This document shows, piece after piece, positions 28,382 through 42,226 of a stretch of 64,000 nucleotides of DNA. The notes below the pieces were generated by a model. That model saw only the letters and a list, made by a program, of their open reading frames with translations. It was not told the DNA's origin and did not search any database. Source of the DNA: Pelosinus fermentans (lineage in GTDB: Bacteria; Bacillota; Negativicutes; DSM-13327); assembly GCA_002434245.1 (NCBI GenBank), contig DJJR01000080.1, positions 15,132-79,131 on the forward strand. Reading direction: 5' to 3'. Each line of letters opens with the position of its first letter. The first letter of the stretch is position 1. Position numbers and translations under genes: made by a program.

Positions 28382-29611
28382 TCAATCCTCGATATTTTCA
28401 TTAATCCACAGATTCACCAGATGAACAGCACCGCGAAAGCCCATAAAGGGAGGCTCATAGGGATGCAACCGCCATTTTGTGTCGGGATTGGAAATTTGCA
28501 GCTCTGTATTGCGGCCCGCCCATTCCAGCGCCTCACCGCTGGCCATGAGATAGCCTTTTTGATGTTTCTGTACCGCTTGCGTCCATTGTTCTTCCGAAAA
28601 ATAGGGGATATCCTCACTGGTCATATCAGGACAGTCGCACCAGCAGGTTCCTTTGCCAAGGGAAAACTCACCGCAGCCAAAAGAAAGAATGCCCCTGACC
28701 ACATCGGCATGTCCGCCCAAGGACAAAACGGCTTCCTCCGGGTGTGCTCTTATGATATGCCGGAAGGATGGCATTACGGCTGCAAGCTGCTGCCGGGAGA
28801 TTTCCCGCTGAGCCTTGAGGAAAGCGGCATCAGCAGTCAAACCGGCTATTTGCGCAATTTGGTCAAGCCACCGGGTAGTTCCGTCAATACCGTATGGCCG
28901 CCCCAAAAGATAGGGTGTGCCAAAGCACTGTTGCAAGTGCTTCGCAGCAGGTTCGCCTTCGCCCCGTATGACAAGGTTGATATGTGCGCCGCCCATATTC
29001 TCAATTTCTGTAATGGATGTATCCGAGGTCATCACACACAGCGGCTTTATGCCGAATGTACCCTCCATTATACGGACCAGCTCCATAGCATCCGCCTGAA
29101 AGCGAAACAGATCAGCGCAGGAGCCGATGATATTAAAGGTCGGTTCCTGCGTCCGTTTCACACCCACCGCCAGCGTTTTGGCAAGCAGCAGAAGGGCTTC
29201 TTGTACACCGCGATGCTGAGTGACATTAAAACCACCATAACCGAAGGGCAGCAGACGAACACCGGGATATTCCTGCTGCAATTCCGCGCAGAGAGCGGGA
29301 AGATCTGTCCCGATCACCTCAGGAATCGACGAGGGTAAAAGAAAAATCACACGAGGATGATCGCGCATTACCACATTGTCAATGGTATGGTTAAGCCTCT
29401 CTGTACCGCCAAGGGCGATATCTGTTTCGTCTATGTGAGTGGAATAAAGCTTGCAGGCATTATGTACACCTGCACGTTTGAGGGTTACACCACTGTAGAG
29501 CATGTGTCCCATGCAGCCAAATTCCACAAGCGCAGCACCACGAATGGAAGCAAGTGTCCAAAGAATACCCATACGTCCCGAAGGCAGCGGCTTAAATCGA
29601 TGCAGCCCCAT
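28382..29611 (-). CDS. Nitrogenase component 1-like protein, beta-type (NifK/NifN/BchB-like)
   Basis: 409-residue member of the oxidored_nitro family. The N-terminus has FGCMGHMLYSG (Cys33), matching the one bridging-cluster Cys retained. The other two NifK cluster positions appear lost: RFKPLPSG where CxPLGA is usual, and LLPSSIPEVIG with Ser94/95 where TTC is usual. THIDETDIALGGTERL is a NifE/D-like signature. An unusual C-terminal Cys group, Cys313 and Cys323/325/327 (TCWCDCPDM), could bind an extra metal. The ATG at 29611 has AAAGGAGGG upstream and overlaps the previous gene by 20 bases, implying translational coupling and a heteromeric complex. Confidence 0.85.
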   Translation of the reverse strand: MGLHRFKPLPSGRMGILWTLASIRGAALVEFGCMGHMLYSGVTLKRAGVHNACKLYSTHIDETDIALGGTERLNHTIDNVVMRDHPRVIFLLPSSIPEVIGTDLPALCAELQQEYPGVRLLPFGYGGFNVTQHRGVQEALLLLAKTLAVGVKRTQEPTFNIIGSCADLFRFQADAMELVRIMEGTFGIKPLCVMTSDTSITEIENMGGAHINLVIRGEGEPAAKHLQQCFGTPYLLGRPYGIDGTTRWLDQIAQIAGLTADAAFLKAQREISRQQLAAVMPSFRHIIRAHPEEAVLSLGGHADVVRGILSFGCGEFSLGKGTCWCDCPDMTSEDIPYFSEEQWTQAVQKHQKGYLMASGEALEWAGRNTELQISNPDTKWRLHPYEPPFMGFRGAVHLVNLWINENIED

Positions 29612-30881
29612 GTACAGTCCCTCCTTTCTCTGCTATGCTGATTTCATTCAATATACTTAGGATTCTTTTTAACAGGTGATTCGTACGGGCATAACCCACC
29701 TGTCCGTAGAAATCAAATAAGTCCGGTACGCAGGGAATGGTTTTGTTAGGTTCCGGCAAATAACCAAAACATAAATCCGGAGCCAGCTTTTTTAAAATCG
29801 GCAAATCTGCTTGTGCATTCACCATCCGGCAAATCCAGGGATTATACCCCATGTCAGTTAGTTCCTTGGCATACTCCCTGTCTTCGGGATAATATTCCTC
29901 CAAATGCAAAAGCAGAGGCTCCATGCCAAGTTTAGTGAGATAAACCGCTAGTGGAAGGGGTATATCAATTCTAGGAAAGAATATATACTGAAGCCCGCCC
30001 AGCCTTTTTTCTGCCTGCTTCTGCAGAGTGAGGGCTTCCTGACGTTCCTTATCAAATGCACCGTCCCAGGAATAGCCGAAGCGCTCGCCAAGAGCTCTAT
30101 AAGCCTTGTCGATGCTTTCTACATCATATAGCGTGTGCAGGGAGATATATGGAACGCCAAATTCCTGCTCCATCCTGGCAGCCAACGGCTGCATAAAGGG
30201 AGAAACCACCAAATTTAGTACAGCATCCGGCGCGCTTTGAAAATCCTCCAGGGAAGAGCCTGGCGCCAGATAGCGTAAAGCAATGCCGCGTCCCGTGAGA
30301 GCGGGCAGCAAAGACGGCAGGGGGATATGTTCTTCTTCTGGAGCACGGCCCAGCACATTAATGCGATTAGAATCTGTTGCTTTCCCGTCCATCAGCATGC
30401 CTAATGCCTCCATTGTTTTCCACGAACCGGGAGGATAACTGATGTTTTTGAACTGTCCCAGCATCACAAAGGTGATACGCGCAGACAATTCCGGCTGTAC
30501 TTCATTAAGAATTGCCTGGATGTCCTCCCCAATCAGCTCCGGTATACAGGTGACAATCATTAAAATCGCCTTTGCTCCGGCGTTATCCATCTTTCTGAGG
30601 GCATCTATCAGCCCATTCCGGCAGCCGAACACCACCTCCTGAGCATCCAGTACATACAGCCAATGCAGCTCGCCATTCCTGCCTTCCGGCTTGGGGTTAT
30701 AAAGCCGCGAATGGGTGGCGCATTCCGGCATTCCAACCAGCAAAGAAGACAGACCTTTGATTTTTTCTACATTTACTGACGCGATACGCATAGGGCAATG
30801 GTTGCCGGGAGAAACTGCAGGGGTCAGAAATTTTATGCCATTGTTAGATTTCACTGCCGACAGGCGCTTTACGTGTTTCAA
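29592..30881 (-). CDS. Nitrogenase component 1-like protein, alpha-type (NifD/NifE/BchN-like)
   Basis: Partner of the NifK-like protein. Three cysteines correspond to the NifD bridging-cluster ligands: NHCPMR (Cys29 from the TTG), VGMPEC (Cys54) and IVTCIPELIGEDI (Cys112). The FeMo-co ligand Cys of NifD (NLVHCYRS) is replaced in NLVVSPFMQPLA, and no counterpart of its homocitrate-side His is evident. A FeMo-co enzyme is therefore unlikely. The start is uncertain. A TTG at 30881 is 6 bases past the NifH-like stop but 18 bases from GGAGG. An in-frame ATA at 30890 sits 9 bases from GGAGG and overlaps the stop. Confidence 0.85.
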   Translation of the reverse strand: MKHVKRLSAVKSNNGIKFLTPAVSPGNHCPMRIASVNVEKIKGLSSLLVGMPECATHSRLYNPKPEGRNGELHWLYVLDAQEVVFGCRNGLIDALRKMDNAGAKAILMIVTCIPELIGEDIQAILNEVQPELSARITFVMLGQFKNISYPPGSWKTMEALGMLMDGKATDSNRINVLGRAPEEEHIPLPSLLPALTGRGIALRYLAPGSSLEDFQSAPDAVLNLVVSPFMQPLAARMEQEFGVPYISLHTLYDVESIDKAYRALGERFGYSWDGAFDKERQEALTLQKQAEKRLGGLQYIFFPRIDIPLPLAVYLTKLGMEPLLLHLEEYYPEDREYAKELTDMGYNPWICRMVNAQADLPILKKLAPDLCFGYLPEPNKTIPCVPDLFDFYGQVGYARTNHLLKRILSILNEISIAEKGGTVHGAASI

Positions 30882-30886
30882 CTCGT

Positions 30887-31642
30887 TTATGTTGCTTCGC
30901 CTCCTTCCAGCAGCAGCTTGGCAAGTGCCTTGTAATGGACCGCCATGGTGCAATCGGGAAAAGCTTCCACCACGGTTTTTCCCTGGGCCTCGGCCTCCTG
31001 AACAAAAGGATCGCGGGGCAGACGATAAATAACCGGCGCCTCAATCTCCGCCGCTGCCTTATCCACCAGTTCATTTTCGCCTTCAATGTTCTTGGCATTG
31101 AGGATCAGCCCCCGCAGGGAGGCGTAGCCCCGCTTGCCAAAACTCTTGACCGCGTGGGCGATATTCGCCGCTGCATAGAGGGCCATCATCTCACCCGAGG
31201 TGACAATGCACACCTCGTCAGCATAGCCGCCCCGGATGGGCATGGCAAAGCCGCCGCAGACCACATCACCCAGCACGTCGTAAAGCACCACATCTGGTTT
31301 GTAAATTTCGTAGGCATCCAGTTCTTCCAGCTTTTCAAAAGCCGTGATGATGCCACGCCCGGCACAGCCCACCCCGGGAACCGGGCCGCCGGATTCCACA
31401 CACAGCACGCCTGTGCTGCTTTTTACCACAAGGTCGTCAAGCTCTGCGTCGCCCTTTTTCCGCAGGGTATCCAGCACTGTGGGAATGTTTTTCCCGCCGG
31501 TCAGCGTGCGGCTGGAATCGGCCTTAGGGTCACAGCCGATTTGCAGTACAATCAATCCCAGCGCTGCCATGGCTGCCGATACGTTGGATACGGTGGTCGA
31601 TTTTCCGATACCGCCCTTGCCGTAGATTGCAATTTTTTTCAT
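30887..31642 (-). CDS. NifH/BchL-like Fe protein (ATP-dependent reductase)
   Basis: Homodimeric ATP-driven electron donor to the NifD/NifK-like pair. The P-loop GKGGIGKST (residues 8-16) and GCDPKADS are intact. The two [4Fe-4S] ligands are present as GVGCAGRG (Cys93) and [14 protein letters not shown] (Cys129). At 251 residues it is shorter than true NifH, closer to the CfbC/BchL size class. AAGAAGG lies upstream of the ATG. It follows the FecE-like ATPase by 13 bases in the same operon. No nifB, nifE/N, nifV or P-II genes are present, against dinitrogen fixation. Confidence 0.9.
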
Positions 31643-31655
31643 TTGGCACCTTCTT

Positions 31656-32489
31656 TCATGTAGAATCTGTCTTTAAACTAGCACTCGGTTTATTGTCTTT
31701 AATGAGGTCATAGGAAATACAGGTAGGCCTGCCTGTGCGGGGTTCGATTATGATCTGTGCGTCGATGCGAAACGTTTCCCGCAGCACCTTAGTGGTCATT
31801 ATTTCTTCTGGTGCACCGTGGCAGATAATGTCCCCGCAGCGGATCGCTACCATGTAGTCGGCAAAGCGGGCGGCAAGGTTTAAGTCGTGGAGCACCATCA
31901 CAATGGTTCGGCCCTGCTCCCGGTTCAGACGGTAGAGCAGTTCCAATACTTCCAGCTGGTAGGACAAATCGAGATAGGTAGTCGGCTCGTCCAGCAGAAT
32001 CAAATCGGTTTGCTGTGCAAGGGCCATGGCGATCCAGACCCGCTGACGCTGCCCGCCGGAAAGGTTGTCTACCGCCGTGATTTCCAACTCTGTGAGTTTG
32101 GTAACTTCCAGTGCCCAGGCAATAATTTTTTTATCCTCGGGCTTTAATTTGTCCAAGCCCCGCTGATAGGGAAAGCGGCCATAGGCCACCAGCTCGCCCA
32201 CCGTCAAACCGGCCGGAGCCTGGGGAGACTGGGGCAGGATTGCCATTTTTTGAGCCACTTCTTTGGTCGTTAAGCGCCGGATATCATCCCCATTCAAGTA
32301 TACCATGCCGTTTTTCGGTTTCAGGATCCGCCCCACAGTCTTTAACACCGTAGACTTGCCGCAGCCGTTTGGACCAATGATGGCCGTAATTTTCCCCTGG
32401 GGAATCTGCATATTCAAACTGTTTACTACAAGATTGTCTTCGTAGGAGACGGCTAAATTCTCTGTTGCAATGCTGCTCAGATTCATCAT
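31656..32489 (-). CDS. FecE/BtuD-type ABC transporter ATPase
   Basis: ATP-binding subunit of an iron-chelate or cobalamin-type importer. It has Walker [11 protein letters not shown]-loop [10 protein letters not shown], signature LSGGQRQR, Walker [13 protein letters not shown] and the switch His in [23 protein letters not shown] begins the conserved domain. The frame extends 33 codons further into the permease gene, but the ATG at 32489 just past the permease stop, after GAAAGG, is more likely; an ATG three bases later is also possible. Its position between permease and NifH-like genes ties the importer to the reductase. Confidence 0.9.
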
Positions 32490-32496
32490 CCTTTCG

Positions 32497-33537
32497 TTAG
32501 TATCTGCTTCTCGCCAAAAGATAAAGGAAGTACGGCGCGCCAATGATCGCCACCATAATACCGGTAGGAATTCCCGCAGGCTGCGCAACCACCCGTGCGA
32601 TGGTATCTGCCGCCGAAACCAATACTGCTCCCGTAAGCGCGCAGGTAGGCAACAGAATCCGATGCCTCGGTCCCACCAGCCGACGCGCCAGATGAGGCGC
32701 GATCAGTCCCACAAAACTGATGCTGCCGCTGACCGCTACGCAGGAAGCCGCCAGCGCGACGGAGGCTGCAAGCAGCCTGCGCCGTTCCCGCTCCACGGTC
32801 GCGCCCAGGCTGTGAGCTACGTCATCCCCCAGATTCAGCACATCCAGCACCCGGGATTTAGACAGTACATAGGGAGTTAAGAGCAGCAGCCACGGCAGCA
32901 GGGCCAGCACGAATTTCCAGTTGCTTGCCCAGATGCTCCCTGCCTGCCACGTCGTCACAAAATCAAACTGGGTGTCAGCCAGCTTGACCACCAGCACGGT
33001 TGTCAAAGAAGAAAGCCCCGCCTGCACTGCCACACCGGTTAAAATCAGGCGCAGGGGCGCGACGCCTTCTCCTTTTTTGAAGGCCAAAGCATAAATGATC
33101 CCCGCCGTTACGCCTGCGCCAAATAGCGCCAGAAACGGCAGAGTGAATACGGACAGGAAGGAATGTGCCCCAAAGAACAGCACATATAAGATCACCATCA
33201 GTCCCGCGCCGGCATTAATACCAAGCAGGCCTGGATCAGCCAGCGCATTTTTGGCGACGCCCTGTATGATGCAGCCGGATAGCGCGAGACCTGCCCCCAC
33301 TAGAATGGAAACCACAATACGAGGCAGCCGAAAATCGAACAAAATGAGATTTTCCCTGGTCGTACCCCCGCCGAACAAAGTGCGGAGCGTATCTGACGGA
33401 GGCAGTTTTGTATATCCGGTGTTCATGCTGATGATAAAGGAAAGCATGAGCAGCAACGCGCATCCGATGACAATGACCGTGTTGCGCAAAGCGATTTTTC
33501 TTTTATGGGCTTCGTTTTTCTGCAGTTGGTTCATCAT
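32497..33537 (-). CDS. FecCD-family ABC permease (second)
   Basis: Integral membrane permease of about ten helices. It has FDFRLPRIVVSILVGAGLALSG, LADPGLLGINAGAGL and the coupling region LNLGDDVAHSLGATVER. SFVGLIAPHLARRLVGP is the classic BtuC/FecCD C-terminal signature. Its start overlaps the end of the preceding permease, and GTG/ATG choices at 33540, 33537 and 33534 are equivalent apart from spacing to AAAGGATGG. Base composition is clearly more GC-rich than the 42-43 kb genes. Confidence 0.92.
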   Translation of the reverse strand: MMNQLQKNEAHKRKIALRNTVIVIGCALLLMLSFIISMNTGYTKLPPSDTLRTLFGGGTTRENLILFDFRLPRIVVSILVGAGLALSGCIIQGVAKNALADPGLLGINAGAGLMVILYVLFFGAHSFLSVFTLPFLALFGAGVTAGIIYALAFKKGEGVAPLRLILTGVAVQAGLSSLTTVLVVKLADTQFDFVTTWQAGSIWASNWKFVLALLPWLLLLTPYVLSKSRVLDVLNLGDDVAHSLGATVERERRRLLAASVALAASCVAVSGSISFVGLIAPHLARRLVGPRHRILLPTCALTGAVLVSAADTIARVVAQPAGIPTGIMVAIIGAPYFLYLLARSRY

Positions 33538-34574
33538 CACAGTGCCATCCTTTGCTTATGAACAAGATACAAAAAGAAGGGAACGCCGACAAGCCCAATC
33601 AGCGCGCCGATGGGAGTTTCAAAAGGCGGGTTGAGCGTTCGCGCGCCCAAATCCGCCAGCACCATGAGCAGCGCGCCCAACACGGCTGAGGAAGGAATTA
33701 CCCAGCGGTAATCCACGCCTACAAAATACCGTGCCAGATGGGGGATGATAAGTCCCACAAACCCCACAGCGCCCACAACGGAAACGGAAGCACCCGCCAG
33801 TATCAGCACGATCAGGAAGCATAGTACATTGCCCACCGTCGTATTCAGCCCCAATCCCTTGGCTACATCCTCGCCAAGGCTCAGCAGAGAGACAGAACGA
33901 GCAAGGGTGATGGCTCCCAAGAGCGCGCCAAGTATCCACGGCGCCATAATTCTAATTTGCTCCCAGTTGGAACCGGCCACGCCGCCCGCGGTCCAGAACA
34001 TCATATCCTGGGCTACTCCGAAGTATAGGGCAATGCCCTGACTAAGCGCTGCCAGCAGCGCGCTGACAGCGGCACCTGCTAATACCAGCCGTATGGGGGT
34101 AGCGCCCCCACGCCGCAGGGAAGCAATGCCTCCTACCAGCGCCGCGCCAAATGCCGCGCCCAAAAAGGAAAAAAGAATGATCTGCATATATACCAGATCC
34201 GGGAATAAGGCAAAGCAGATGGACAAGGCAAAACCCGCTCCGGCATTCAGACCCATCAGCCCTGAATCTGCCATGGGATTTCTGGTCGTGCCCTGCATAA
34301 TGGCTCCCGCTACAGCGAAAGCAGCGCCAACTAAGGCGCTTGCAATAACACGGGGAAGACGGAGGTCAACAACAATTAAATGCTGGGTATTCTTCGCATC
34401 AAAGCGAAACAGGGCGTCCCATACCGAGGACAGCGGAATTTCCGCCGCACCCACGGTGATGGAAAACGCCATGATCAGTGTGAGCAGCCCGGTCCCCGCT
34501 ATGATAATGAACCAAGCTGTCCAGGCGTGACTTTTTTTTCTGCTTTGAATCGGCGGTTTGTTTGTCTGATTCAT
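33537..34574 (-). CDS. FecCD-family ABC permease (first)
   Basis: Ten-helix permease pairing with the second FecCD protein to form a heterodimeric channel. Signatures are VDLRLPRVIASALVGAAFAVAG, MADSGLMGLNAGAGFALS, LSLGEDVAKGLGLN and GFVGLIIPHLARYFVG. The N-terminal ~15 residues are charged (NQTNKPPIQSRKKS). GGGAGG lies about 11 bases before the ATG. A 128-base gap separates it from the binding-protein gene upstream. Confidence 0.92.
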   Translation of the reverse strand: MNQTNKPPIQSRKKSHAWTAWFIIIAGTGLLTLIMAFSITVGAAEIPLSSVWDALFRFDAKNTQHLIVVDLRLPRVIASALVGAAFAVAGAIMQGTTRNPMADSGLMGLNAGAGFALSICFALFPDLVYMQIILFSFLGAAFGAALVGGIASLRRGGATPIRLVLAGAAVSALLAALSQGIALYFGVAQDMMFWTAGGVAGSNWEQIRIMAPWILGALLGAITLARSVSLLSLGEDVAKGLGLNTTVGNVLCFLIVLILAGASVSVVGAVGFVGLIIPHLARYFVGVDYRWVIPSSAVLGALLMVLADLGARTLNPPFETPIGALIGLVGVPFFLYLVHKQRMAL

Positions 34575-34702
34575 TCTGGTGGTTCCTCCCTTCTGCTACG
34601 CCCCGGCCTGTATCTGGTATCGCTCCAGCATATCCACCGCCTTCGTGCAAAATCAGAAAAACAAACCTTTATAGGAGCGGTACTACTGTGTTTTTCCCAT
34701 TA

Positions 34703-35671
34703 CTACTCTGGAAATATCTGCATCAGTTTGTCAGCGGTAATCCGCATGGCAAGAGGTCCAAATGTATTAAGAGAATCATCAAAATAGAGTACTTGTCCAT
34801 TTTCTACTGCGCCTAATGAGTGCCATACAGAAGAAGATTCCTGAGCCTTCACAAATGTTTGTGCATTTTGGACAGAGTCCTGAAAGACAATATAGTCCGG
34901 CTTCATCTCAGCAACCGCCTCTAAGGATAAGGTTTGATAATAATCCGGATAACCAGTTGGCTTAGAAATTCCGAAAGTTTCGTAATACTCCTTAGTCCCC
35001 CGTGAAATGAATGATTTTCCATCTGTACGGAAAAGGGCAATGGTTTTGCCCTTATGTTTACTCAACTTATTCTTTGCAGAGGAAATGATTGTCTCTGTTT
35101 CTTTAATAAACTCTTGGGCAAAGGCTTCTTTCCCGACAATTTCAGCGCAGGCTAATGTCTGATCCTGCCAAGAGTCGCTAAAATCCACTTGAATGACAGG
35201 AGCAATCTGCACTAGTTGATCGTACATTTCAGCTAGATGACCTTGCCCTTTAAATGTAACAATGACATCCGGCTTCGCTGCTAGAATTGCCTCTAAATTC
35301 AAATCCCGGGAACTGCCTAAGTCCATAATGTCTGCAGTTCCTGCATAGGGTTTAAGAGTTTCCCATTCTTGCAAAGCCTTCATCGCATTCCCTGTCGAAG
35401 CTCCCATAGACGCAATGGGAGGCATCCCCAGGGCAAGAAAGTATTCCAAATATAAGGAGTGAAGAATTGCTATCCTTTGCGGCTGTTTTGCTAAAACAAC
35501 TTTATTCCCTGCTGCGTCTGTAATTGTCCTCGGCCACACGGCTTTGCCGCTTGTTGTCTCTGGTGTACTCACGGCAGTGCTTGCACTATTTCCCGCAGGA
35601 TTTCCGGTGCAGCCAGTCAGCAGCCCTGTCAAAAGCGCGAGTGAGACGATAAGCCCCATTAGTCTTTTCAT
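34703..35671 (-). CDS. FecB/FhuD-type substrate-binding lipoprotein
   Basis: Delivers a metal chelate or tetrapyrrole to the FecCD permeases. A lipoprotein signal ends at LLTGC. The mature part has TITDAAGNKVVLAKQPQRIAIL, a class III binding-protein start, and KPDVIVTFKGQG and MKPDYIVFQDS in the two lobes. SRGTKEYYETFGISKPTGYPDYYQTLSLEAV resembles iron-siderophore receptors. GGAGGAG lies 4-8 bases before the ATG. It sits 26 bases downstream of the TonB receptor gene. Confidence 0.9.
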   Translation of the reverse strand: MKRLMGLIVSLALLTGLLTGCTGNPAGNSASTAVSTPETTSGKAVWPRTITDAAGNKVVLAKQPQRIAILHSLYLEYFLALGMPPIASMGASTGNAMKALQEWETLKPYAGTADIMDLGSSRDLNLEAILAAKPDVIVTFKGQGHLAEMYDQLVQIAPVIQVDFSDSWQDQTLACAEIVGKEAFAQEFIKETETIISSAKNKLSKHKGKTIALFRTDGKSFISRGTKEYYETFGISKPTGYPDYYQTLSLEAVAEMKPDYIVFQDSVQNAQTFVKAQESSSVWHSLGAVENGQVLYFDDSLNTFGPLAMRITADKLMQIFPE

Positions 35672-35697
35672 TCTAACTCCTCCAATAGGAATATGGT

Positions 35698-37965
35698 CTA
35701 AAAATGCATGGTCGCCGACAGCTTAACGGTGCGGGGACCGCCTAATGTGGCGAAGCCTTCCATGCTGAAAGCACCTGCCCAGTATTGTTTGTCAAACAGG
35801 TTTTCCACACTAAGCCGGTAGGTAACCGGGACGTTCTTGATCTCGGTTGTGTAGCGCGCGCCGATGTCATAGCGCACCCAGCTCGGTATTTTGATGGTGT
35901 TGGCATTGTTAATATATTGAGAATCCGTATATACTGCCCGCAGTGAAAGCGTTAAATCATGATTCCACGGCGTGTCCCACTCGACGCCGGCATTCATCGT
36001 CCATTTGGGTACGCCAAAGGGGGTGTTGCCTTTCGTTGCGGTCGCGGTTGCATTGTTTATTTCAGCCTTAAGATAGCTGATGCCGCCCAACAAGCGCAGG
36101 TTCTTGCCTATTTCGCCAAAAGTGCTCCATTCAACGCCGCGGCTTTCCTGTTCGCCGTCATAGGTCTGGGTTTTTTCATTTAGGCTATTTGTGACAACCA
36201 TTGTGTTGGGCCGGTTAATTTGAAATAAAGACAGCGTATTCGCGAATTTCCCTCTATCCCATTTGATGCCAATTTCTTTTTGTTTACTGGTATACGGCGC
36301 CATTAACTGACCGGAGTTGGTATAGCCCAAGGTGGCTCCGACCTCCGCTCCAGGGGAAAGTGCTTCAATGTAGTTGCCATAAAGCGCAACCGAGTTGCCC
36401 CAGGGTTTGACTACAAAACCGACTAGAGGCAGCGTTTTATCCGCATCATGCTGTGCAGTCTGGGTGCCAGTGATGGCGTTAAAATTTTTCGTTTTCACAC
36501 TGTGCCGGCTTGCCCCTAACGTTAACTGCACTTTTTCCTCGTTGAAGGAAAGTGTGTCAGCCAAAAGATAACTGGACAGCTTCGTGGTAGATGTCTTGCC
36601 GCCCTTGCCCTTCCAGGCCACACTATTAAAATAGTCGGCAAATGAGAACGAGTCATCATAAATACTGATGGGGAAACCGCTCATGTAAGGAGTAGCGACA
36701 TAACGGTTGAACGTGCTGGAATACTCATTATCGAGAAAGCTGGAGCTTAAGACCAATTGATGCTTGACCGAACCAGTCTGGTACGTGCCGCGCAGTCCCA
36801 GTTCGGCTGAAGTGGCGTCATTCCAGAAGTTTTGTTTAAAAAGATTGCGGGGATAAGCCGTTCCGTCGGCTTGGACAAGTAAAATATGATTGCCGTTGAT
36901 GAAGCCGGTAGCCCTGGAAGCGGCTTTGCCGAAGCCGGCGTAGGCGGTTAGGTTTTCCTGAATGTCATATTCACCTTTAAACAGAATCCCGTTATTCCGG
37001 GCGGCGCCCGAGGTGCCTTTAAACAGATTGGTTGAGCCATGAGGCGCTTTAATAGTATTGCTTTGCAGCTGATACATGGAAATGAGGCCGTTTTCATAAT
37101 TCTCCTGGGAACCGTAAGCATCCAGAGACAGCCGCCAGCGGTCGTGGCGGTAATCCACGCCCAGGGAGCCCAGCAGTCGTTCCTTCGACTGGCCGTCAGT
37201 TTCGGTGTCACCATCCGCGTACAGACCATTGAAACGAATGCCCCATTCTTTGTTTTTTCCGAAGCGCCGGCCAATATCAAGATGCCCTCCAAAGTGGGAC
37301 GAAGAGGTATAACTTGTCGTAAAACTGGTTACGTCCTCTTCACCGGCCCGCTTGGGCACCAGGTTGATCGATCCGCCCACCGAGGCATTCACGCCGCCGT
37401 AGAGCAGGGAACTGGGCCCCTTGAGCACTTCTACCCGTTCGAGAAATTCAACAGGAACACGATAGTATGGCGCCAAACCTTGCATGCCGTTAAAATAAAG
37501 ATGTTCCATCGCAACGTCCAGGCCGCGAATCTTGTAATATTCAGCGGCTTGCCCGGTAGGGGTAGTGAAGCGGACGGATGGATCGTTGATGAGTACATCG
37601 TACAGCGTATTGGCCTGCTGATCTTCCATGATCTGGGACGTATAGCTGGTGACATGAAAAGGCGCATCCATAAAATCTCTGTTACCCAGTACGCCGAGAT
37701 TGGCGCCGCGGGCCACCTGTCCACCAGCGTAGGCCGGGGGAAAAGCTGCACGGCTGGCAGTCACTTCAACTCCTTCCAGGATGAATTCCCCCTGACCGAC
37801 AGTCGCTTTAGCGGAAGAAACTGGTTGAGTATCGGCCTGGCTGGCAGCAGTAACTATTTCTGCCGTATCCTCAGCATAGACAATTGCCGACGTATTCCAG
37901 AGCAGGCTGCTGCCGACCAAGACGTAAAGCAGGCGGTTTTTGGCAGGGAACAATGTTTTCTTCAT
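35698..37965 (-). CDS. TonB-dependent outer-membrane siderophore receptor
   Basis: 755-residue outer-membrane gated channel. A signal peptide (MKKTLFPAKNRLLYVLVGSS ... VYA) is followed by a plug domain with DVLINDPSVRFTTPTGQAAEYYKIRG and VEVLKGPSSLLYGGVNASVGGSINLVPKR, then a ~22-strand barrel ending in an aromatic Phe (KLSATMHF). FhuE/FpvA-type receptors are the closest kind I recognise; the ligand is unknown. AAAGGAG precedes the ATG at 37965; the upstream in-frame ATG lacks one. Its presence shows a diderm cell envelope. The regulatory region upstream holds a Fur palindrome and three tandem repeats. Confidence 0.93.
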   Translation of the reverse strand: MKKTLFPAKNRLLYVLVGSSLLWNTSAIVYAEDTAEIVTAASQADTQPVSSAKATVGQGEFILEGVEVTASRAAFPPAYAGGQVARGANLGVLGNRDFMDAPFHVTSYTSQIMEDQQANTLYDVLINDPSVRFTTPTGQAAEYYKIRGLDVAMEHLYFNGMQGLAPYYRVPVEFLERVEVLKGPSSLLYGGVNASVGGSINLVPKRAGEEDVTSFTTSYTSSSHFGGHLDIGRRFGKNKEWGIRFNGLYADGDTETDGQSKERLLGSLGVDYRHDRWRLSLDAYGSQENYENGLISMYQLQSNTIKAPHGSTNLFKGTSGAARNNGILFKGEYDIQENLTAYAGFGKAASRATGFINGNHILLVQADGTAYPRNLFKQNFWNDATSAELGLRGTYQTGSVKHQLVLSSSFLDNEYSSTFNRYVATPYMSGFPISIYDDSFSFADYFNSVAWKGKGGKTSTTKLSSYLLADTLSFNEEKVQLTLGASRHSVKTKNFNAITGTQTAQHDADKTLPLVGFVVKPWGNSVALYGNYIEALSPGAEVGATLGYTNSGQLMAPYTSKQKEIGIKWDRGKFANTLSLFQINRPNTMVVTNSLNEKTQTYDGEQESRGVEWSTFGEIGKNLRLLGGISYLKAEINNATATATKGNTPFGVPKWTMNAGVEWDTPWNHDLTLSLRAVYTDSQYINNANTIKIPSWVRYDIGARYTTEIKNVPVTYRLSVENLFDKQYWAGAFSMEGFATLGGPRTVKLSATMHF

Positions 37966-38184: not shown

Positions 38185-38277
38185 ATCCTATTTTTATTCT
38201 TGAAAATACGAATGATTTTCCCTTGAATATCATGACAGAACAGTTTGGCGAAAGGTTTGACATCCAATAGTAAAATT

Positions 38278-38312
38278 ATTATAATAATGATAATCAATAT
38301 CATTATTATAAT
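38278..38312. promoter_or_regulatory. Fur-type iron box between receptor and regulator genes
   Basis: Perfect 15-base arms ATTATAATAATGATA and TATCATTATTATAAT flank ATCAA. The core AATGATAATCAATATCATT closely follows the Fur consensus of interleaved GATAAT units. It is positioned to repress the AraC gene and possibly the receptor operon under iron repletion. Confidence 0.8.
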
Positions 38313-38423
38313 GCAACTTATATTTTTAATAAAGCAGTATCTGTTATTTTATCGCCTATGACAATGATTTATAAGCGCATGAAGCCGGGAGCTTTCTGCA
38401 CAGGTGAGTGGGGAGGACCGAAA

Positions 38424-39254
38424 ATGCACGTGGATATCAATCAACTGGCGGGAAACTTTTCCCGAACCGAATTCCAAATCATTGATGTGATCAGAGCGAA
38501 CGTGCCGCCGGGGAAAAAATGTTTTGGTGTCTTCACTCCGCCGTTCTCGGGTCTCATTTTTCCCATAAAAGGACGGGCGAGGATGTCTTTTGACGGTGTG
38601 CCTTACGAAATGGAGCCGGGGAAAATTTTTCACGGCGGTCCCAATATCCCTCTGGACAAAGAAGTGGTGGGGTGCACTGAGTGGGATTATATGATCATCC
38701 ATTATCAAGTTGACGACAATGCCAAAATCGAGTTTCCCCAGGCATTTTCCCATTATCAGATTAATTCGGGTTACAGCACCCGCATCAATGATTTGCTGCA
38801 CCGTCTGTATAACGTCTGCATCACGCCGGGCAATTTGTCCGCCCTGCAGGCCAAATTGCTGTTTTTCAGTATTCTGGATGAAAGTTTGACCTGCGCTGAC
38901 AGTCGTCACAGCGAATGGGGCCGGGAACTGGTGGAGCAGGCCGTAGAATATATGAAGACTCACTACATGGAACCACTTACAGTAGCCAAATTGGCTGGCC
39001 AGTATGGCTTAAACAGCAAACAGTTCTCCTATCTGTTTCAAAAGCATACCGGTATGGCACCCCTTGAATATTTGATCGAACACCGATTGCGGCGCGCCCG
39101 GGAACTATTGTGCACCACAGCTCGCTCAATATCGGAGATTTCCTCTTGCATAGGTTACTCTGACCCCTATTATTTCAGTAAGTTATTTAAAAAACGTACA
39201 GGCTTTTGCCCTACTTCACTGCGCGGAAATTTCACCTCGCGTAAGGCACTCTGA
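38424..39254 (+). CDS. AraC-family regulator divergent from the TonB/nif-like operon
   Basis: Likely activator of the metallophore-uptake operon. The N-terminal ~150 residues form a cupin-like sensor (FGVFTPPFSGLIFPIKGRARMSF). The C-terminal ~100 residues have two AraC HTHs: VAKLAGQYGLNSKQFSYLFQKHTGM and ISEISSCIGYSDPYYFSKLFKKRTG. The ATG at 38424 has GGGAGG 7 bases upstream; an ATG at 38358 adds 22 residues but lacks a ribosome site. A Fur box lies ~110 bases upstream, as in PchR/Btr-like regulators that sense their siderophore. Confidence 0.88.
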   Translation: MHVDINQLAGNFSRTEFQIIDVIRANVPPGKKCFGVFTPPFSGLIFPIKGRARMSFDGVPYEMEPGKIFHGGPNIPLDKEVVGCTEWDYMIIHYQVDDNAKIEFPQAFSHYQINSGYSTRINDLLHRLYNVCITPGNLSALQAKLLFFSILDESLTCADSRHSEWGRELVEQAVEYMKTHYMEPLTVAKLAGQYGLNSKQFSYLFQKHTGMAPLEYLIEHRLRRARELLCTTARSISEISSCIGYSDPYYFSKLFKKRTGFCPTSLRGNFTSRKAL

Positions 39255-39521: not shown

Positions 39522-40304
39522 TTACTCACCAACTGCAACGCCTTGCTTCCAGCTGCTAAAGGATTTTTCAATCAGCTTTAGGGCATAGTTTATTCCCAAT
39601 CCCATAATGGCTAACCCCACAATGCCTGCATACATATCAGGGATATTAAATGTTTCCTGGGAATATAAGATTAGATATCCCAATCCAGAGGTAGCACCGA
39701 TCATTTCTGCTGCAACAAGGGACATGACGCAGTAAGATCCTCCTAAGCGAATCCCTGTGAAAATATCGGGAGCTGCCGCAGGTAATATAACCCGTAAGAA
39801 AATAAATTTTTGTGATGCTCCCATGGATTTAGCCGATTGTACCAGTAATGTATCCACATTTTTGACCCCATTAATGGTATTTAATAAAATAGGCCACAGA
39901 GAAGCCCAAAAAATAATAATGGTCTTGGAAAGCTCGCCCACTCCAAATAAAAGAATAAACACAGGAAAAAGTGCAAACGCCGACATTTGCCTAAAAGACT
40001 GAAACAAAGCATCTAAATAGCCTTCAATCTTTTTGAAATAGCCAATAAATAACCCGAAAATCATACCAAAAGAAACAGCAACCGCCATGCCCACCAAAGC
40101 TCTTTGGAGACTGATTAATAGATGCTTAATCAGATCCCCGCTTTTTAGCAGGGCTATTAGTGCAGATACGACTGCCGATGGCGGACTTAAATAGGTAGAA
40201 TTGACCCAACCTGCCCGAGGCGCCAGTTCCCATAATGCAATAAATAAGATTAGGCCAATCGTCTTTTCCAAAGAACCGGTAAAGAAATTAGCCAATTTTC
40301 TCAT
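39522..40304 (-). CDS. NMT1/SsuC-type ABC transporter permease
   Basis: 260-residue inner-membrane permease of the nitrate/sulfonate/taurine/pyrimidine-precursor family, with six helices. The EAA coupling loop is VQSAKSMGASQKFIFLRVILPAAAPDIFTGIRLG; RAGWVNSTYLSPPSAVVSAL near residue 30 is a typical periplasmic loop. The ATG at 40304 follows AGGTGG; a GTG at 40313 lies within that site. It overlaps the 3' end of the ATPase gene, and the three transporter genes form one operon. Confidence 0.9.
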   Translation of the reverse strand: MRKLANFFTGSLEKTIGLILFIALWELAPRAGWVNSTYLSPPSAVVSALIALLKSGDLIKHLLISLQRALVGMAVAVSFGMIFGLFIGYFKKIEGYLDALFQSFRQMSAFALFPVFILLFGVGELSKTIIIFWASLWPILLNTINGVKNVDTLLVQSAKSMGASQKFIFLRVILPAAAPDIFTGIRLGGSYCVMSLVAAEMIGATSGLGYLILYSQETFNIPDMYAGIVGLAIMGLGINYALKLIEKSFSSWKQGVAVGE

Positions 40305-41196
40305 TGTGTCCACCTATCCTTTTCTGAATCATGTCCTTAAATTTTTGTTGCAGTGAAAGAATAGGCTGAACCATTATCCTTCCCTGATCGTTTTCTATAC
40401 TTTCTTGCAATCCTTGGGCTTTCGTAACTTCATTTTTAATCAGACTCCAGGCATATTGTCTAATTTGAGCAAACTCAGATGAATTGCGAATCTCTTCTGA
40501 GCGAGGCCTCGGCAAGGAAACATCAATAATTTCTTTTACTTTGCCTGGTCTTGCTGTCATTACGGCTACACGATCAGAGAGCAAAATTGCCTCATCAATG
40601 CTATGGGTAATGAAGACAATGGTTTTCTTATCGGCTTCCCAAATTCGAATTAGCTCCAGCTGCAGGGTTTCTCTTGTTTGAGCATCTAAGGCAGCAAAGG
40701 GTTCGTCCATCAGCATGATATCCGGTTGATAAGCCAGTACACGGGCAATGGCGACTCTTTGCTTCATTCCTCCTGACAGTTGATGAGGGTAACGATTGGC
40801 AAAAGCTGTCAAGCCAACCATTGCTAAGTAATACCTGGCAATTTCCTCCCGTTCCTTTTTCTCTAATCCACGAATTTGCAGTCCGATCTCCACATTTTCC
40901 AGAACTGTACGCCAGGGAAAAAGTGCATATCCCTGAAAGACCATGCCACGGTCAAAACTTCTATCACTTACGAGCTTACCATCAATCAATATTTGTCCGC
41001 CATCTTGTTTATCCAACCCGGCTAGCATGTTTAGAAAGGTAGATTTACCGCAGCCACTGGGTCCTAGTATAGAAAGAAACTCTCCCTCACGGACCTGCAA
41101 GTTAAAATCATCCAAGACCGTTAATTTTGTCTTTTTTCCAAAATCATTGTTCACTTGGAATTGGCGATGAATCTTGCTAGCTTGTATTTTACTCAT
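40288..41196 (-). CDS. NMT1/SsuB-type ABC transporter ATPase
   Basis: 302-residue ATPase. It has Walker A GPSGCGKST, VFQGYALFPWRTVLENVEIGL, signature LSGGMKQR, Walker B IMLMDEPFAALD and switch His in FITHSIDEA. A C-terminal extension of ~45 residues after the core ends RIGGHNEKIG and overlaps the permease start. AAAGGTGAG lies upstream of the ATG. It energises the adjacent permease for a substrate delivered by the 41225 lipoprotein. Confidence 0.92.
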   Translation of the reverse strand: MSKIQASKIHRQFQVNNDFGKKTKLTVLDDFNLQVREGEFLSILGPSGCGKSTFLNMLAGLDKQDGGQILIDGKLVSDRSFDRGMVFQGYALFPWRTVLENVEIGLQIRGLEKKEREEIARYYLAMVGLTAFANRYPHQLSGGMKQRVAIARVLAYQPDIMLMDEPFAALDAQTRETLQLELIRIWEADKKTIVFITHSIDEAILLSDRVAVMTARPGKVKEIIDVSLPRPRSEEIRNSSEFAQIRQYAWSLIKNEVTKAQGLQESIENDQGRIMVQPILSLQQKFKDMIQKRIGGHNEKIG

Positions 41197-41224
41197 GGTA
41201 GACTTCTCACCTTTCTACTGTAAT

Positions 41225-42226
41225 TTATTTTTTATAGTTAGGATTGTACTCATTGGTATAAATTTGTTCCAGTTTCACCTGACCTGGTGCCAGCTTATTG
41301 ACTTCAACCAGTCTGTCAATCCAATATTGCACTCCTGCTTCCGGTACCAGCTGATCTTCTGAAAAATTATAAAGTTCCACTTGATCCGCTTTCATATTAA
41401 AGCGCTTAGCCATAATATCTTTTGCTTCCTGAGGATGTGCATTACTCCATTTAGCCGTTTTAATCAGAATTTCCGTTAATTCTTTTACTGCTTCGGGATG
41501 TTCTTTCAGGAATTTACCGTTCACAGAATAAGGGCACATACCGCTGAGACCTTGGTCAATATCATAATCGCTGAATAGCATTTTAAATTTAGGATCATTG
41601 CTGGCACGTCCTGAAGCAGGCGGATGAATAATGGCAATATCCGTGTGTCCTTCTGCCAATGCCATTTCATGCTGGTCATCTGGTGCTGTCTTGAAATTAA
41701 TACTGCTGGGATCGCCGCCATTTTCCTGCAGATATTTTTTCGTTACATATTCGGCGCAGGCCCCAAAACTATTAAGACCAATGGTTTTACCGCTAAAGTC
41801 TTTGATTGATTTAATATCAGAGTCCGCACGGACAAAGTATTTCATATGAGGCCACTGTTTGGTGGAGCTGCTGCCAGAGGTAAAAATTTTAATGTCTGCA
41901 CCGCTGGCAATGGCCGCAATAACGACGGGGGTATGCCTGGTGGCAACATCAATTGAACCATTTACCAGTGAAGGGATTACTTGTCCAGCGCCCATTTTTC
42001 CTACAAACTTAGGCCGAACGTTAGCGTCTTTAAAATATCCTAATTCATCTGCTAAATAGATATAGTCAAAATAAACAAGTTCTGGATACTTGAATTCTAC
42101 CACCTCTTTGGCAGACTTTGCCACTGACGGCTGTGCCGTATTACTACTGCCGCAACCTGCTGCCACTGCTGCAATAAACATCATAGTAACTAGTAAAATA
42201 AGTGCTTTAACGTTTTTAACAATCAT
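41225..42226 (-). CDS. NMT1/SsuA-type substrate-binding lipoprotein
   Basis: 333-residue receptor of the ABC importer. The lipobox is AAVAAGC, then YPELVYFDYIYLADELGYFKDANVRPKFVG. FVRADSDIKSIKDFSGKTIGLNSFGACAEYVTKKYL and IIHPPASGRASNDPKF resemble aliphatic sulfonate, nitrate or thiamine-precursor receptors. It is the intact relative of the decayed gene at 16652-17406. AAGGA lies about 8 bases before the ATG. The mRNA leader carries a strong terminator hairpin directly before the gene. Confidence 0.9.
   Translation of the reverse strand: MIVKNVKALILLVTMMFIAAVAAGCGSSNTAQPSVAKSAKEVVEFKYPELVYFDYIYLADELGYFKDANVRPKFVGKMGAGQVIPSLVNGSIDVATRHTPVVIAAIASGADIKIFTSGSSSTKQWPHMKYFVRADSDIKSIKDFSGKTIGLNSFGACAEYVTKKYLQENGGDPSSINFKTAPDDQHEMALAEGHTDIAIIHPPASGRASNDPKFKMLFSDYDIDQGLSGMCPYSVNGKFLKEHPEAVKELTEILIKTAKWSNAHPQEAKDIMAKRFNMKADQVELYNFSEDQLVPEAGVQYWIDRLVEVNKLAPGQVKLEQIYTNEYNPNYKK

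Follow-up and report, generated by a model that had tools for sequence, protein, structure and literature searches.

In the Pelosinus fermentans DNA analyzed here (a 64,000-nucleotide stretch of contig DJJR01000080.1, referred to as the window), eight minus-strand genes at positions 28382 to 37965 encode, in order of transcription, a TonB siderophore receptor, an importer made of FecB-, FecC-, FecD-, and FecE-type proteins, and three nitrogenase-like proteins, H, D, and K (together HDK). We propose, with a probability of about 0.6, that HDK is a reductase of the DPOR type that spends ATP to strip iron from imported ferric siderophores. An earlier reading of the sequence alone (the sequence-only reading) had described a single same-strand operon and inferred that its nitrogenase-like products form a two-component reductase, driven by ATP, whose substrate is an imported chelate. 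The operon was borne out by open reading frames (ORFs), Pfam, and NCBIfam, and its intergenic gaps are small or negative, with the one exception of 128 bp between FecC and FecB. The chelate reductase is the best-supported reading because of the gene linkage, the phyletic profile, the Fur motifs, the siderophore-class receptor, and an esterase found in the place of HDK, whereas the reduction itself is what we infer.

The association of importer and HDK was examined at 33 D/K loci (the window, L009 to L021, L030 to L045, L052, L058, and L059), of which 13 came from one contig scan and the others from genome searches; seven distant matches (27 to 30% identity) of one genome search were left out. 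Close FecCD homologues lay within 5.2 kb of D/K at 22 of the 33 loci. The pairing is thus more than chance and recurs at 21 loci besides the window, seven of them TonB-headed. A same-strand run FecD-(FecE)-H-D-K was observed in 18 of the 22 linked loci, and in four (L041, L042, L043, and L052) importer and HDK diverge from a common AraC region. The run is headed by a TonB gene in eight linked loci (the window, L010, and L030 to L035); L039 has one nearby on the opposite strand, and none was seen in the stretch read at the remaining linked loci. L009, which begins at a contig end, is probably linked too but split over contigs, because contig L067 of the same genome stops inside H. Three further loci (L015, L019, and L020) are cut by contig ends. 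The P. fermentans genome itself carries a second copy of the system on contig C72 (D 45% and K 61% identical), and plasmid pSPTER of Sporomusa termitida (L055) bears a paralogous importer-HDK-esterase operon near transposase genes.

The phyletic pattern was surveyed in genomes of the same class with cut-offs of E ≤ 1e-60 for D and E ≤ 1e-75 for FecC, at most four candidates per genome being scored for D. D was found in 11 of 380 genomes and FecC in 33 of 379. A FecC at least 65% identical was present in all 11 D-bearing genomes; identities of at least 59% occurred in 14 class genomes, and the other FecC matches listed did not exceed 51%.

The promoter region of the operon contains putative Fur boxes. 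The motif TGATAATNATTATCA has two overlapping matches at 38282 to 38302 (three in the window versus 0.5 expected), and the 19-base form has four window matches versus 0.07 expected, three of them at the operon site, where they extend to 38307. Scores of 12 or 13 out of 14 were obtained for 15 of the 22 linked loci (the window, L010, L030 to L035, L038, L039, L041, L042, L043, L052, and L059), including all eight TonB-headed loci, and L067 scored 13. Among importers without HDK, L056 and L060 to L064 scored 13 and L066 scored 12; L065 was negative. Positive scores were reached by 0 to 6 of 200 shuffles, and a score of 13 by none of 325 400-bp tiles of other loci of the P. fermentans genome. Judged by these motifs, the gene cluster is apparently iron-controlled, perhaps via Fur.

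The receptor exceeds the cut-off of TIGR01783, the model for TonB-dependent siderophore receptors (352.6 versus 223.5), and with its FecCD partners (PF01032 scores of the two permeases, 330.2 and 302 bits) and its PF01497 partner it belongs to the ferric-siderophore TonB/ABC uptake systems. Of the ligands considered in the sequence-only reading, a siderophore is favored; a tetrapyrrole is less likely for the window operon because the receptor falls far under the cut-offs of the TonB-B12 (48.7 versus 599.7) and TonB-hemin (57.2 versus 316.85) models, and because, among solved structures, FemA and BauA are its best relatives. This likeness and the esterases described below weakly suggest phenolate or catecholate ligands.

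A comparative argument comes from related importer operons. In genome G687 (L063), a TonB-FecBCDE operon is followed, in the place of HDK, by an esterase of family PF00756. Its best relatives of solved structure are an IroE-like hydrolase, BES, and IroE-like siderophore esterases; ferric enterobactin esterase and feruloyl esterases rank after these. L038 and L039 have HDK and an esterase together, the IroE-like esterase gene lying after K. The L066 importer has a PepSY_TM and a TonB_C gene nearby; according to passages of PMC10866019, the PepSY_TM family includes siderophore reductases, and its member PA1909 adjoins FemA. L060 and L061 contain an ABC protein of MsbA-like size within the operon, and L062 showed no evident release enzyme among what was scanned. 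Though few in number, the loci with such genes suggest a role for HDK in iron release.

With none of the three proteins does any nitrogenase-superfamily NCBIfam model reach its cut-off. The nifD, nifK, and nifH cut-offs were all missed (nifH, 326.1 versus 394.35), as were those for BchB (K, 88.1 versus 509), BchN (D, 33.0 versus 419.95), and BchL (H, 201.7 versus 345.15). H scored best on the CfbC model (328.6 bits, cut-off 402), and D and K each scored highest on the NifE model, far under its cut-off. D retains three cluster cysteines, at positions 21, 46, and 104 of the stretch 29592 to 30857 (plus 11 when numbered from the AUA start discussed below), and Cys343 of D and His36, Cys165, His301, and Cys325 of K are invariant. 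His36 aligns without gaps to Asp36 of BchB, where BchZ has a cysteine. The six P-cluster cysteines are not all present: three are found in D, and K has Ser11 (52/52), Ser94 (52/52), and His36 in the corresponding places. Neither is there an equivalent of the FeMo-cofactor ligand Cys275, since D position 219 is serine in 53, threonine in one, and cysteine in one of 55 sequences. The K model is nearest to BchB of DPOR and has a BchB-type fold. In trees built without Cfb and named Mar sequences, D and K each formed clades of their own and, among the families placed, grouped with none whose substrate is known; such a grouping had been named as counterevidence in the sequence-only reading. From the alignment, K His36 probably ligates the cluster.

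Passages of PMC9727729 give ferric siderophore potentials of -350 to -750 mV at pH 7 and of -790 mV for enterobactin at pH 7.4; these lie beyond NAD(P)H (about -320 mV), those of catecholates most. We envisage that iron starvation would cause Fur derepression and production of the receptor and FecBCDE, and that the ferric siderophore would reach the cytoplasm intact through the importer. The Fe protein (H2) would then spend ATP to drive electrons into a DPOR-like D2K2 component whose single [4Fe-4S] cluster would lie between D and K, held by the three D cysteines and probably K His36. As this component would lack a FeMo-type cofactor, the chelate could itself occupy the substrate cavity, and iron would be freed by reducing either Fe(III) to Fe(II) or the chelator. 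Fe proteins of the nitrogenase type can use ATP to supply lower-potential electrons, and the ATP coupling would thus provide a potential beyond that of NAD(P)H. The low siderophore potentials, an ATP-powered Fe protein, and a cavity that could hold a chelate therefore led us to propose ATP-driven reductive release. We place at slightly less than even odds the more specific version in which this branch of the nitrogenase superfamily comprises ferric-siderophore reductases with a His-ligated [4Fe-4S] cluster that bind the siderophore in the protochlorophyllide site of DPOR and leave it intact.

A number of observations weigh against this proposal. The importer linkage expected across genomes held for 22 of the 33 loci, but seven (L011, L012, L013, L014, L016, L017, and L018) lack an adjacent importer, and homologues without linked importer genes, which the sequence-only reading had named as counterevidence, thus exist in part. 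The L011 genome has importer genes elsewhere (L056; FecB 64%, FecC in two frames 54 and 70%, FecD 69%, and FecE 73%), and the best genome-wide FecC for L012 is 39% identical; for the other five, which are gut/termite loci with H proteins that group in one clade, the best FecC of the genomes is at most 33%. One search of 391 genomes yielded five matches, four of them the unlinked L011, L013, L014, and L016 and one linked (L058). H is absent in L035 and a broken remnant in L040, and two distant genomes have no FecE gene between those for FecD and H (L033, which retains a short N-terminal remnant, and L058). No Fur motif scoring at least 12 was found in seven of the 22 linked loci (L036, L037, L040, L044, L045, L058, and L021, with 61 bp read in the last), in the unlinked L011 and L012, or in the seven gut/termite loci tested (L013, L014, and L016 to L020). 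Three genomes (G477, G490, and G687) have FecC without D, and D-bearing genomes contain paralogous importer operons without HDK (L060, L061, and L066); since the importer thus persists alone in these three genomes and in several paralogous operons, HDK is not essential to transport. Candidate release enzymes adjoin few loci (the esterase three, PepSY one), PF00756 also contains the feruloyl and other esterases present among the matches, and the esterases score far under the NCBIfam enterochelin-esterase cut-off. Finally, alignment to Mar D-type chains puts Cys33 instead of His36 at the cluster position, and a DPOR-like structure would suit a tetrapyrrole equally well.

L035 and L040 are the two copies of the system in one genome, and another Fe protein may serve D/K there, because both copies lack an intact H. 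The five unlinked gut/termite H-D-K loci have no common neighbor among those scanned; on the opposite strand, L013 carries genes for a FecB-type and an NIR_SIR protein.

Alternative functions were weighed against the same evidence. HDK might reductively break a bond of the chelator, such as a hydroxamate N-O bond or an oxazoline ring, iron release being secondary or the ligand a nutrient. FemA, the best solved receptor relative, is named as a ferric-mycobactin receptor, BauA takes up acinetobactin, and both ligands bear hydroxamate and oxazoline groups. Nitrogenase-superfamily members, moreover, reduce C=C and C-S bonds in the account given in passages of PMC12552129. However, the operon contains no catabolic genes, and its Fur motif points to iron rather than to carbon or nitrogen. 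Sequence hardly separates this possibility, which we consider unlikely, from the proposed siderophore reductase.

Next in order, and likewise improbable, is the reduction of an imported tetrapyrrole (heme, a corrinoid, or another metallo-tetrapyrrole), with release of the metal or reuse of the ring. DPOR, COR, and CfbCD offer precedent, the K fold is closest to BchB, and the single-cluster ligand pattern is DPOR-like. FecCD/PF01497 systems also transport heme and B12, and another BchB-like gene elsewhere in this genome (L053, see below) sits with cobaltochelatase-like and B12-receptor-like genes. Nevertheless, the receptor of the window is of the siderophore class, closest to FemA and BauA and far under the B12 and hemin cut-offs, and the Fur motifs and IroE-like esterase neighbors indicate iron siderophores.

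It is quite doubtful that HDK is a NifEN-like scaffold that builds a metallocofactor from imported metal, as proposed in PMC3464626. Although NifE is the best-scoring model for D and K (far under cut-off) and an ABC transporter adjoins, the cofactor-binding cysteine is absent (D position 219), the operon genes include no assembly partner or target enzyme, and an esterase occupies the place of HDK in one locus. That HDK serves some other purpose and is linked to the importer only as a passenger, as HDK without importer in gut/termite loci and importers without HDK might imply, is very improbable given 22 linked loci across great sequence distance, two arrangements that keep the pairing (same-strand, and divergent with AraC), paralogues within one genome that both retain it, and co-occurrence in 11 of 11 genomes.

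The proposed reductase differs from the characterized systems closest to it. Compared with DPOR (BchL-BchN-BchB), Asp36 is replaced by His, K has 409 amino acids (aa) versus 514 in BchB, and HDK scores far under the NCBIfam cut-offs, forms its own clade, and is tied to an iron importer. It differs from COR (BchXYZ), whose Z subunit has Cys at position 36 where K has His36. The Fes/IroE/BesA esterases, SIP/FhuF, and the PepSY (FoxB) reductases have an analogous role, the proposed iron release after uptake, and related operons have an IroE-like esterase in place of HDK or beside it; their folds are not known to be related to HDK, nor are they known to be ATP-driven. CfbCD, the Ni-sirohydrochlorin a,c-diamide reductase, resembles HDK in that H scores best on the CfbC model, but H is below its cut-off and, according to passages of PMC11423573, Cfb has no K subunit, whereas D and K are both present here. 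MarBHDK and IsrBHDK (group IV; C-S cleavage, isethionate) also have clustered H, D, and K, and Isr lies near transporter genes (passages of PMC11423573); however, HDK lacks the six-cysteine P-cluster pattern and the Cys275 equivalent, and its transporter is of another class. The Mar cluster ligands used for comparison were those in passages of PMC12552129. The radical-SAM B gene of Mar/Isr was not found among the operon genes, the genome as a whole not having been searched.

The claim that the system is undescribed held in part: a siderophore role for nitrogenase relatives was not described in the literature searched, but a clade beside ABC transporters was noted by Dos Santos et al. 2012 (PMC3464626). 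In passages of that paper, nitrogenase-like genes are co-located with ABC transporters, a coupling of metal transport to cofactor assembly is suggested, and a Firmicutes clade is described whose genes follow those for NifH and an ABC ATPase. Its NifE-like subunit conserves three (P-cluster) cysteines, whereas its NifN-like subunit has none; a non-Cys residue might bind a cluster in some such clades. This Clostridium botulinum/Alkaliphilus NifHEN-like clade is probably the same family as HDK, because C. botulinum proteins are 65 to 68% identical to K. The word siderophore is absent from the paper, and TonB, Fur, and a His ligand do not occur in its passages on the clade. Relative to these passages, and as far as seen, the dedicated siderophore importer, the TonB receptor, the Fur motif, the esterase replacement, the DPOR-like K fold, and His36 are apparently new.

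Esterase hydrolysis, potential shift, and reduction are the siderophore iron-release routes described in passages of PMC11965169. If the proposal is correct, strict anaerobes would have a new way to release such iron, by an ATP-driven reductase of the nitrogenase type; a branch of this superfamily that has no assigned role would gain a function (456 K-like proteins were found at E ≤ 1e-3, not all of the HDK branch), and metal-chelate reduction would join the N2, tetrapyrrole, and C-S chemistry of the superfamily. Culturable Pelosinus and Sporomusa make the reductase hypothesis directly testable.

Table 1. Features of the importer-HDK operon and its promoter region (window coordinates)
Feature	Position	Strand	Evidence
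K-like subunit, 409 aa, BchB-like nitrogenase component 1	28382..29611	-	PF00148, 178.9 bits
D-like subunit	29592..30890	-	PF00148, 237.7 bits
H-like Fe protein, 251 aa, loop and two [4Fe-4S] cysteines	30887..31642	-	PF00142, 313.1 bits
FecE-type ABC ATPase	31656..32489	-	PF00005
FecD-type permease	32497..33540	-	PF01032
FecC-type permease	33537..34574	-	PF01032
FecB-type siderophore-binding protein	34703..35671	-	PF01497
TonB-dependent siderophore receptor	35698..37965	-	Plug and TonB barrel; TIGR01783
Sigma-70-like promoter, TTGACA-17-TATAAT, 12/12, before AraC gene, overlaps Fur motif	38257..38285	+	
Overlapping putative Fur-box motifs (TAATAATGATAATCAATATCATTATT)	38282..38307	.	Motif scan
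AraC-family regulator, divergent, promoter region common with operon	38358..39254	+	

D has no ordinary start codon. It apparently begins at AUA (30890 to 30888; 432 aa), which overlaps the H stop (AUAA) 9 nt past GGAGG, or else at TTG (30881; 429 aa). An apparent AUA start likewise overlaps the H stop in L010, L030, and L032; the start in this overlap is GTG in L034 and ATG in L036.

No nif maturation genes occur among the immediate neighbors, the check having covered these and PF00148 but not every ORF of the window. The P. fermentans genome has 32 PF00148 matches; among them, C78 carries genes of the nif type, C36 genes of the alternative-nitrogenase type, and C21, C49, and C11 many D/K pairs of group IV (type labels agree with the tree). 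On C40 (19000 to 31222; L053), a different nitrogenase-like gene of 452 aa has BchB as its best model. Its neighbors score best as CbiK cobaltochelatase, as CbiS, and as a B12 TonB receptor, and they include a FecB/D/E-type importer; these scores are under cut-off. L053 is perhaps a tetrapyrrole or corrinoid system. Past the AraC gene, the window contains an SsuABC-like transporter on the minus strand (39522 to 42226).

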